Assembly: GCF_030068445.1 (NCBI RefSeq)
Contig: NZ_JAQPOK010000001.1
Location: forward strand, 1 to 64,000
Length of the DNA: 64,000 nucleotides
Reading direction: 5' to 3'
Origin: Roseofilum halophilum BLCC-M91
Lineage (GTDB): Bacteria; Cyanobacteriota; Cyanobacteriia; Cyanobacteriales; Desertifilaceae
The notes under the pieces were generated by a model. The model searched no databases, was not told where the DNA came from, and worked only from the letters and a program-made list of their open reading frames with translations. The translations under genes were made by a program, and so were the position numbers. This document shows, piece after piece, positions 6,510 through 64,000 of this stretch; the stretch's first letter is position 1, and each line of letters opens with the position of its first letter.

Positions 6510-6564
6510 GTTCAGAGAGCTACCCATAACTGTTTCCTCTACCTCGACAGATTCACTGTGCCAG

Positions 6565-6624
6565 TGTTGCTCACAAGAAAAAATCGTTTCTCACTTGACA
6601 CGATTCAAAAAAGTGCGCTATAGT
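6565..6624 (+). promoter_or_regulatory. Predicted promoter and possible operator of the pPIWI-RE operon
   Basis: TTGACA at 6595-6600 and TATAGT at 6619-6624, 18 bases apart, form a near-consensus sigma-70 promoter pointing at the REase gene. The -35 box is preceded by CTCACTTG, and a similar CTCACAAG lies 20 bases earlier, so CTCAC half-sites repeat next to the -35 box. These could be binding sites for the divergent XRE protein. The promoter call is by consensus match; the operator is a suggestion. Confidence 0.55.
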
Positions 6625-6716
6625 TTTATCAATAAATCAATTGTATCTCATGTCGAACACAGCAGAACAGTTCGGGCGATGTTGACTTCAGTAATTTAGA
6701 AGTTAGAGGGGGAACT

Positions 6717-14823: not shown

Positions 14824-15027
14824 ATGGCACAACGTACCCGTTTAGGAGACATCCTCAGACCCCTGAACTCGGAATATGGTAAGGTAGCCCCCGGTTGGGG
14901 AACCACCCCCTTAATGGGAGTGTTTATGCTACTGTTCTTAGTCTTCCTGCTGATTATTCTCCAAATCTACAACTCCTCCCTCCTGCTGGAAGGATTAGAC
15001 GTAGACTGGACGACTCTCGGTCGGTAG
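14824..15027 (+). CDS. psbH: Photosystem II protein PsbH (10-kDa phosphoprotein homologue)
   Basis: 67 residues: N-terminal stromal stretch [31 protein letters not shown], one membrane helix (about 29-50), then [17 protein letters not shown]. This is the normal cyanobacterial PsbH without the phosphorylated extension of plants. It binds near CP47 and supports QA/QB function and the assembly of photosystem II. ATATAGGAGACCC precedes the ATG as ribosome-binding site. psbN is divergent on the left, and a terminator follows. Confidence 0.97.
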
Positions 15028-15069
15028 GATACGGCAATCAGATTACTGAAAACGTTTAGTGATTCCTGA

Positions 15070-15102
15070 AAACTCGGTTTAGTCGATAAACCGGGTTTTT
15101 TT
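15070..15102 (+). terminator. Rho-independent terminator after psbH
   Basis: AAACTCGGTTTA at 15070-15081 pairs with TAAACCGGGTTT at 15087-15098 (one mismatch) around a 5-base loop and runs into a T tract. It lies 43 bases after the psbH stop and fits a factor-independent terminator. Confidence 0.85.
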
Positions 15103-15123
15103 ACAGCGCTCCGCGCGGCAGAA

Positions 15124-15147
15124 GGGTAATAGGTAATGGGTAATGGG
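15124..15147 (+). repeat. Heptameric tandem repeat (GGGTAAT)
   Basis: Three heptamers, GGGTAAT AGGTAAT GGGTAAT, and a partial fourth, of the STRR class. They lie between the psbH terminator and tatA. Confidence 0.7.
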
Positions 15148-62218: not shown

Positions 62219-63334
62219 CTATCTAATAGTTAGATTTTCGCACGAGTGGAGAATAATCTGCCGATCGCGATCGAAGAGAACCGAACGCACCTGCACGGGT
62301 TGCTGAGTTTGCTTGAGGATATAGGCTTGAGATCGGCGATCGATTTGCGTCACGATTTCCCCATAAACTCGCTCGACCCAGTTTTCTCCGGACTCGTGTT
62401 CCCACTGACGCAGTTTTTCTAAACCCTCTTGTACGGTTTTAGAGCTGAACAGCTCAGTTAACTTCTCCCCTGGAAGGCCCGCCTTCATAGCATAGGCCGT
62501 TAAAATTTCTAGACGGCCATCGGCTAAATCGTGGTGAGTATGGAAAATACCCCCCGCTAACTTAATCAGTTTGCCATGATAGCCCCATAACACAATCTCC
62601 TTAATCTGTTGCGCTCCTGCTTCCGCTAACATGGGGCCAAGCCAATTGGCGGTTTTGACGATTTGTTGGGGATCGATACCTTTTTGTTTGGCCAAGGCTA
62701 AACCATTTTCACCTAAGCAGAAGAACAGGCGGTCATATTGACGCGCTTTTTCCTGTAAAATTCGGCGAAATTGGCTTAACTGTTCGGGGGAACTCAAGGG
62801 TTGAGAAATTCCCGTAGTTCCCAACAAAGATAACCCTTCGACGACTCCAAAGGCTTCTAAGGAGGTGCGTTTAGCTAAATTGCGCCCTTCCGGAAGCACT
62901 AAGGTAACGCGAATGTATTGATCTGGGGATAATTGCGGTTGTAGATTGTGATGGAGTAACTTCTGAGCGTAGCGATAAATGGCGGCTTTTCCTTCATTGT
63001 CCACTTGTTTGCCAATGCCTTCCCCCCCGACAATTTCGATCGGATCTTCAGAGTCTTTCCTTGACACCGTTTCCACTAACGCCCAAACGGGAGTATAGCG
63101 CGTCAAATCCAGATTATCACCCGGATCGCTATGACTGATCCCCAAGGCCATGCCAGGGCGAATTCTGGAGACTTCGGCGATCGCCAAATTGACCGTTTGC
63201 GCCGGATCGATTAAATCTAGGGATACGCTCTCGATCTCTACCTCCCCATTCAAACACTTAAGGGCCGCCACTGCTGAAGCCGCCGCAAAAACGGGTAAGG
63301 TATATCCGGGACGAGGTGAGGAGTCAGAAGCCAA
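62219..63334 (-). CDS. cbiD: Cobalt-precorrin-5B C1-methyltransferase CbiD
   Basis: 371 residues. CbiD marks: RPGYTLPVFAAASAVAALKCLNG, IEIVGGEGIGKQVDNEGKAAI, RVTLVLPEGRNLAKRTSLEAFGVVEGLSLLGTTGISQPLS, and GYHGKLIKLAGGIFHTHHDLADGRLEILTAYA. It methylates C1 of cobalt-precorrin-5B in the anaerobic cobalamin route, with SAM. It lies between guaA (132 bases) and the tRNA-Ser fragment. The start MASDSSPRPGYTL fits the family. Confidence 0.95.
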   Translation of the reverse strand: MASDSSPRPGYTLPVFAAASAVAALKCLNGEVEIESVSLDLIDPAQTVNLAIAEVSRIRPGMALGISHSDPGDNLDLTRYTPVWALVETVSRKDSEDPIEIVGGEGIGKQVDNEGKAAIYRYAQKLLHHNLQPQLSPDQYIRVTLVLPEGRNLAKRTSLEAFGVVEGLSLLGTTGISQPLSSPEQLSQFRRILQEKARQYDRLFFCLGENGLALAKQKGIDPQQIVKTANWLGPMLAEAGAQQIKEIVLWGYHGKLIKLAGGIFHTHHDLADGRLEILTAYAMKAGLPGEKLTELFSSKTVQEGLEKLRQWEHESGENWVERVYGEIVTQIDRRSQAYILKQTQQPVQVRSVLFDRDRQIILHSCENLTIR

Positions 63335-63391: not shown

Positions 63392-63493
63392 CTAGAACAC
63401 ATATAGGGTAAGGATAACGGAGAGAGAGGGATTCGAACCCTCGTTAGCGTTACCACTAAACAGCATTTCCAGTGCTGCTACAAACTCTTCCAT
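63392..63493 (-). CDS. Short frame reading through the tRNA-Ser fragment
   Basis: A 33-codon frame from ATG 63493: MEEFVAALEMLFSGNANEGS, then NPSLSVILTLYVF and TAG. AAAGGAT precedes the ATG. Most of it is the tRNA 3' part read as protein. The element side supplies the first codons and the chromosome the last, so it spans the junction. A small integration-linked frame is possible; chance is equally possible. Confidence 0.3.
   Translation of the reverse strand: MEEFVAALEMLFSGNANEGSNPSLSVILTLYVF
63418..63477 (-). tRNA. tRNA-Ser(GGA) 3' fragment, likely attachment-site scar
   Basis: Read on the reverse strand, 63477 to 63418 gives the complete anticodon arm (CAGCA-CTGGAAA-TGCTG, anticodon GGA), a long variable arm as in serine tRNAs, the T arm GAGGG-TTCGAAT-CCCTC, the acceptor 3' strand TCTCTCC and G discriminator. 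The 5' half (acceptor 5' strand and D arm) is missing: what precedes the anticodon stem (GGATATGGAAGAGTTTGTAG) does not pair or match. This is a 60-bp displaced 3' end, as left by tRNA-targeting integrases. An integrase-like gene lies 134 bases away. Confidence 0.8.
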
Positions 63494-63610
63494 ATCCTTT
63501 GCATATCAATACTTTTGAGAATCCTAACACTAAACACCCTTAATTTTCAACCATTCTTTCAACCATTTAAGCTAGACTTGGTGCTGTAAGTGTTGGGGTT
63601 AAATAAGCGT

Positions 63611-64000
63611 ATGTACTCAAAACATACTGACTTCCGGTGGTTCTCCTACCACAGCTATGTAACGTCTGGGATTACCCAGTTCCGGGTAAGACTTATCGCC
63701 CGGTTAGGACGTAAAACCATTAACCTTGGTGGAGATGAGTTAGTCGCATTCAACACTGCCCACAAATTGCACGAGATGGTTGAATGTTTGCTATTAGATG
63801 AAGAGCCGATAGATCTGTCCGCTTTAAGAGATTACGCCAAAGAGCAGGTAAGGAAAGGGAGAGCAGAAAAAAACGGCAAACTGAAAGTAATAGAAAAAGG
63901 TCAACTAATTGACCTATGGGACAGATACGAAACATTCCACAGAAAGTCCCATCAATGGGAAGAGTCTTACATTTATACCCACATTCAAACTGTCCGTAAT
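63611..64000 (+). CDS. Phage-type tyrosine integrase, N-terminal part (runs off the window)
   Basis: An open frame from ATG 63611 continues for 130 codons to the window edge without a stop. It starts MYSKHTDFRWFSYHSYVTSG, with an arm-type beta region (ITQFRVRLIARLGRKTINLGG), and then helices with LIDLWDRYETFHRKSHQWEE, the core-binding SAM-like domain that precedes the catalytic domain in tyrosine recombinases. The catalytic R-H-R-Y part would be outside the window. The adjacent tRNA-Ser fragment strongly supports an integrase. Assignment by the N-terminus alone is moderate. Confidence 0.65.
   Translation, partial: MYSKHTDFRWFSYHSYVTSGITQFRVRLIARLGRKTINLGGDELVAFNTAHKLHEMVECLLLDEEPIDLSALRDYAKEQVRKGRAEKNGKLKVIEKGQLIDLWDRYETFHRKSHQWEESYIYTHIQTVRN

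Follow-up and report, generated by a model that had tools for sequence, protein, structure and literature searches.

In Roseofilum halophilum BLCC-M91, positions 63417 to 63478 (minus strand) of the window, the 64,000-nucleotide stretch of DNA analysed here, very probably mark the junction of the chromosome with an integrase-borne element in the anticodon arm of the host tRNA-Ser(GGA) gene, the other end of the element lying on contig C126. The two ends together comprise a displaced tRNA half, a complete hybrid gene, similar repeats on both sides and an integrase gene, and relatives carry empty sites. We infer that C126 and C1, the contig of the window, hold the ends of one element, and we hold the exchange point, the binding of the arm sites, a former circular state and a working hybrid tRNA with the same reserve. 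The boundary of the element is real and ordinary in kind; its unusual part is the rebuilding of the tRNA gene with a clearly diverged 3' half.

The junction in the window

The segment at 63417 to 63478 comprises the 3' half of a tRNA-Ser(GGA), starting with the 5' side of the anticodon stem and reaching the acceptor end. It agrees at all 62 nt with the complete gene for this tRNA in the same-genus genome G005, which is element-free at this site (BLAST-type match of 100%, query positions 1-62), and it occurs once in its own assembly. After the anticodon arm, the identity to the native genes of G001, G002, G004 and G005 is 91-98%. Upstream in tRNA sense, in the place of the D arm and the 5' acceptor strand, the window reads TGCAAAGGATATGGAAGAGTTTGTA, as opposed to TGGAGAGGTGGCCGAGTGGTTGAAGGC in G005. 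The original prediction, that the 3' 60 bp of a serine tRNA remain, cut at the 5' edge of the anticodon stem, is thus borne out by the comparison with G005, with 62 nt as the measured length. The 19 bp at 63460 to 63478 (minus strand) form the anticodon arm common to the C126 tRNA in an alignment of both copies, and are the presumed recombination core, within which the exchange point would lie.

ARAGORN predicts a full tRNA-Ser(GGA) at 63417-63503. We take this prediction to be spurious because its acceptor stem forms five of seven pairs versus 7/7 in the complete gene on C126. A truncated fragment can therefore be predicted as complete, and such predictions would enter automatic tRNA lists. 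An explanation of the region by a known RNA family was rejected, as the three Rfam matches (E up to 1) all fell under the gathering score. The antisense of the tRNA fragment (L009:119-170) matches the Rfam family Plastid-psbl-rps4 3'UTR with 39.1 bits, against a gathering score of 68; this family seems to include antisense trnS.

The order of the genes tells the two sides of the junction apart. In G005, guaA and then a CbiD-like gene precede the complete tRNA-Ser(GGA), which is followed by an ATPase gene; in the window the order is guaA, the CbiD-like gene, the tRNA 3' half and the integrase gene. Therefore, the chromosome lies on the left and the element on the right. The CbiD-like gene (62219 to 63334, minus strand) encodes a protein 92% identical to the one beside the complete tRNA in G005.

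The tyrosine integrase gene starts with GTG at 63590, 112 bp past the fragment, runs on the plus strand through the end of the window at 64000 and ends at contig position 64852, encoding 420 aa. An in-frame ATG at 63611 is an alternative start, and counted from there the predicted spacing of 134 bases between the fragment and an integrase-like gene holds. The whole protein matches Pfam Phage_integrase (PF00589; E 7.5e-15, 55.6 bits, cut-off 27.1) and a PHROG integrase (2.2e-31), so that the adjacent gene is a recombinase, the point on which the original prediction could have fallen. The observation of a tRNA 3' half and an integrase at the junction is confirmed. The 134 integrase residues within the window alone gave no Pfam match; the nearest solved structure by sequence is the integrase 3nkh (E 3.8e-11).

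As a feature beyond the original prediction, two direct repeats of TGGTTGAA stand between the fragment and the integrase gene, at 63546 to 63553 and 63558 to 63565 (both minus strand), at -87 and -75 relative to the core. They are presumed to be arm sites of the integrase; taken with the repeats at the C126 end, they would flank the core in a lambda-type arrangement. This paired pattern has a single occurrence in the window, and none of 100 shuffled sequences contained it.

Beyond the integrase, and next to it, contig positions 65554-66930 (L009:2255-3631) hold a primase-like ORF with DUF3854 and D5_N domains, which stops where a repeat common to contig C22 starts. The remaining primase part was sought via DUF5906; none was found in the own assembly, and 4 of 14 control genomes matched. 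A DUF3854 protein also lies on the integrase side in G671, D5_N being additionally present in our genome, and the tRNA end in G025 carries an AAA_25/DnaB-like protein. A palindrome behind the integrase (about L009:1640-1680) is similar to the flank on C126. A home of this element on phages or plasmids was not supported. None of the 22 pattern stretches on viral contigs was a relative, the best among the matches listed for 20 phage records reached 29.6% identity over 72% of the integrase, and 3 plasmid records showed 24.5-30.3% identity to it.

The complete tRNA gene on contig C126

Contig C1 ends at 67065, and the far end of the element lies outside it. A direct repeat of 63418-63477 had been predicted at that end, but no second copy was found in the own assembly (4.85 Mb, 169 contigs, 95% complete), where the stretch is present once. 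Sequence searches with either copy recovered one complete tRNA-Ser(GGA), on contig C126, which is 75% identical to the window fragment over query positions 1-62 and exact in the 19-bp anticodon arm only. The prediction of the long repeat is therefore wrong. The intact tRNA-Ser(GGA) expected beyond the right edge does exist, as a complete gene with a matching element end, but on C126 and not on C1. Likewise, integration at tRNA-Ser(GGA) is upheld by the junction and the adjoining tyrosine integrase, with the predicted 60-bp repeat missing; the reading as an element survives this absence because the element brings its own version of the 3' half.

The tRNA on C126 has a leader and 5' half of the type of the genus, and its variable and T arms are 61-65% identical to those of the native genes of G001, G002, G004 and G005. 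It is fully paired in the acceptor stem (7/7) and the T stem (5/5). An origin of its 3' half in another tRNA-Ser of the same genome is not supported, as the GCT, CGA and TGA genes are without that half. Behind the gene, repeats stand at +131, +141 and +153, and it is mainly because the TGGTTGAA repeats are found at both ends that C1 and C126 are tied together. No middle joining the two contigs was found in the assembly, and string- and BLAST-level scans of the 3.6 kb and 1.5 kb of element covered revealed no whole element-encoded tRNA of the same isotype.

Integrase relatives and their target sites

At an E value of 1e-10, integrase matches occur in 180 of the 388 genomes of the class; at 1e-40, 7 of 388 genomes of the order match. 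Close integrases in the class beyond our own are restricted to G006, G188 and G025 (326-376 bits, the next match having 133 bits). A scan of named genomes gave seven integrase loci. Three of them, in Iningainema tapete, Nostoc carneum and Dendronalium phyllosphericum, were new, and the others, in the Richelia sp. CSU_2_1 MAG, Dolichospermum sp. ST_sed8, an Oscillatoriales MAG and Gloeocapsopsis crepidinum, were counted as G702, G188, G671 and G025. Ten cyanobacterial integrase loci, including our own, were thus compared, the relatives being 41-49% identical to our integrase. In the integrase tree, 3 of 9 inner branches were well supported, so a switch of target from GGA to CGA could not be placed; its outgroup consisted of two of the four intended rows, the other two having been dropped for want of a usable ORF.

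A tRNA-Ser 3' half lies directly at the integrase start in eight of the ten loci. It is of the GGA type in our genome, G188, G025 and N. carneum, and of the CGA type in G671 and Dendronalium; in G055 and G702, the half has a decayed anticodon loop and its partner is a complete GGA gene. Iningainema retains a core remnant at the integrase start, with a decayed half about 0.7 kb off, and at the integrase end of G006 there is a complete tRNA-Ser(GGA) but no fragment. Complete elements within one contig, with the complete tRNA in the same orientation at the other end, are found in G188 (1.5 kb, with arm sites at either side and no ORF above 115 aa except the integrase) and in Dendronalium (5.2 kb, five ORFs of at least 100 aa). 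Second tRNA-like matches in G015, G017 and G037 turned out to be tRNA-Ser(CGA) or (TGA) genes and were discarded. A second integrase on contig C298 of G702 (L109), 37% identical, lies about 0.9 kb from a tRNA-Thr(CGT).

The arm-repeat pair recurs at -90 to -86 and -77 to -73 in 9/9 integrase-side ends (the distance in Iningainema being measured from the core remnant), with the variants TGGTTTAA in G188 and TGGTATA in G702 and G671. Repeats behind the complete tRNA were also found in G025, Dendronalium, G188, G226, G003 and G034, and these exact patterns were absent from six element-free sites (G005, G004, G001, G704, G333, G401). Among 29 tRNA loci of relatives, a string- and BLAST-type scan, which detects exact or near matches, found the pair in two, G034 and G025. 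In G003 (L050:8728-8903) and G034 (L135, around 6540-6649), a complete tRNA-Ser(GGA) is followed by TGGTTGAA repeats without a close integrase (judged at E 1e-40 for G003), and these loci are probable footprints of the same element family. In G055, G702, Iningainema and G006, the integrase sits beside a complete tRNA behind which no exact repeat pattern was found, and since that side lacks arm repeats, we read these loci as relics.

The clearest series of sites comes from the genus of G188. Sixteen genomes were searched with the fragment side of the G188 locus, and four loci were read (G401, G704, G664 and G333). In each, the leader, a complete tRNA-Ser(GGA) and the flank are uninterrupted, and the 3' half is the one displaced in G188. 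G188 itself is a filled site with a hybrid gene, which matches the native gene at 33 of the 44 positions that follow the anticodon stem. The empty and filled sites in this genus demonstrate the exchange of a diverged 3' half. Furthermore, in G226 the hybrid gene is followed after 332 bp by the native half, and the integrase search gave nothing at E 1e-10; therefore, the changed tRNA persists after loss of the integrase. The variable arms borne by the elements of G188 and G025 agree at 17 of 18 positions even though the genomes belong to different families, and thus the half travels with the element.

Readings of the two ends and their meaning

Several observations do not fit a simple exchange of halves. 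In our genome, the flanks of the two copies past the tRNA end are alike at 16 of 20 positions and the variable and T arms differ; the two tRNA-Ser(CGA) copies of Dendronalium (L117:9760-9890 and 14960-15127) show the same, with 44 of 50 flank positions alike. This likeness is not predicted by a simple swap and counts against it; our guess is that earlier elements of the family left their arms at these flanks. The two halves in G055 belong to a single type, the displaced half being mutated, which also argues against an exchange of halves. Additionally, the gene upstream of the tRNA is an ATPase gene in G001, G002, G004 and G005 and a transporter gene on C126, which weighs against the main reading; since our own ATPase gene is on contig C96, a rearrangement or misassembly must be assumed. 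At the end of C96 (L096:1-1008), a TnpB-like ORF adjoins this ATPase gene that neighbours tRNA-Ser in the relatives.

It is unlikely that the window fragment and the hybrid tRNA on C126 stem from separate elements of the same family and never marked the two limits of a single one. The contigs C1 and C126 are unjoined, footprints without an integrase exist (G226, and the repeats behind the complete tRNA in G003 and G034), and the flanks of both copies are alike, as they would be after successive insertions; however, with a single complete tRNA-Ser(GGA), a single displaced half and a single close integrase in this genome, one event suffices. That the C126 tRNA is a native gene, its 3' half diverged or converted by another tRNA-Ser, and the fragment an unrelated duplication, is highly improbable. 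Variable arms of tRNA-Ser do differ among relatives, but none of the own GCT, CGA and TGA genes has a half of the C126 type, four native genes of the genus match the window half, arm repeats come after the C126 gene and, in the genus of G188, the change appears together with the insertion. An assembly error that joined the tRNA to an unrelated contig is hardly credible: the assembly has 169 contigs and C1 terminates in the repeat common to C22, yet other genomes, assembled separately, have the integrase start, the arm repeats and the tRNA-Ser 3' half in this same order.

For a single integrated element, the following course is proposed. Its own tyrosine integrase would recombine the anticodon arms of the host gene and of the circular element with each other, the arms of the element probably being held by the integrase through the TGGTTGAA sites on both sides. 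The 5' half and leader of the host would run into the 3' half supplied by the element, giving the complete hybrid tRNA on C126, and the host's own 3' half would be pushed to the far side, as the fragment in the window. The tRNA would be altered and its old sequence not restored, the variable and T arms of the element differing from those of the host.

Insertion into the anticodon arms of tRNA genes is textbook knowledge, and the tycheposons of Prochlorococcus, to which we liken these elements by their general description, also reside at tRNA genes of cyanobacteria and have a tyrosine recombinase. In the Islander account, 2083 of 3919 islands have an anticodon-centred subsite (PMC4383910). As in those islands, a tyrosine integrase and a displaced 3' fragment at one end are found here, with a complete tRNA probably at the other end and a presumed crossover in the anticodon region; unlike in them, only 14-19 bp are repeated exactly, the 3' half being otherwise diverged, and some of our loci fall under the 2-kb filter described there (PMC4383910). 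Typical mycobacteriophage cores measure 30-45 bp and include the tRNA 3' half (PMC10865867). In our genome, fragment and gene do not share so long an identical stretch reaching the 3' end; 19 bp are exact and the variable and T arms differ. The same paper reports for phage Boilgate, at tRNA-Lys, a core of 43 bp with 5 differences and a tRNA still predicted to be functional (PMC10865867). The likeness lies in a tRNA rebuilt at one junction despite differences between attP and attB in the 3' half; in contrast to 5 of 43 positions, the sequences here are about 65-75% identical after the anticodon stem, and the variable arms in our genome differ in length. In tRNA-dependent lysogeny of actinobacteriophages, described in the same paper (PMC10865867), the core is about 10 bp and the phage encodes a tRNA. 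There too, attP and attB have only a short common core in the tRNA gene; however, nothing is rebuilt and a whole phage tRNA substitutes, whereas C126 carries a complete, paired hybrid tRNA. Further background is given in PMC9897764 and PMC8371274. Among the literature matches listed, from a scope with most subscription journals outside it, no publication dealt with these cyanobacterial elements. The element stands between faithful tRNA restoration and tRNA-dependent lysogeny.

A broader possibility can be put forward only tentatively. Seryl-tRNA synthetase reads the variable arm of tRNA-Ser. By confining its recombination site to the 14-19 bp of the anticodon arm, this integrase family might have freed the site from restoring the host tRNA, and its elements might spread their own variable- and T-arm half-genes among cyanobacteria, permanently rewriting the part of the host tRNA-Ser read by the synthetase. 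The swap may even be selected, for example through less homologous recombination between the ends, through an element loss that becomes costly once the displaced half decays, or through an altered sensitivity to tRNA-cutting defences.

Searches for elements at tRNA sites lean on a long repeat of the 3' half, and since the search for that repeat in the own assembly yielded no second copy, such elements and their hybrid tRNAs may be missed. In the genus of G188, the series of sites shows a mobile element changing a tRNA gene permanently; this is one concrete way for tRNA genes to evolve, and it is open to tests in culture.
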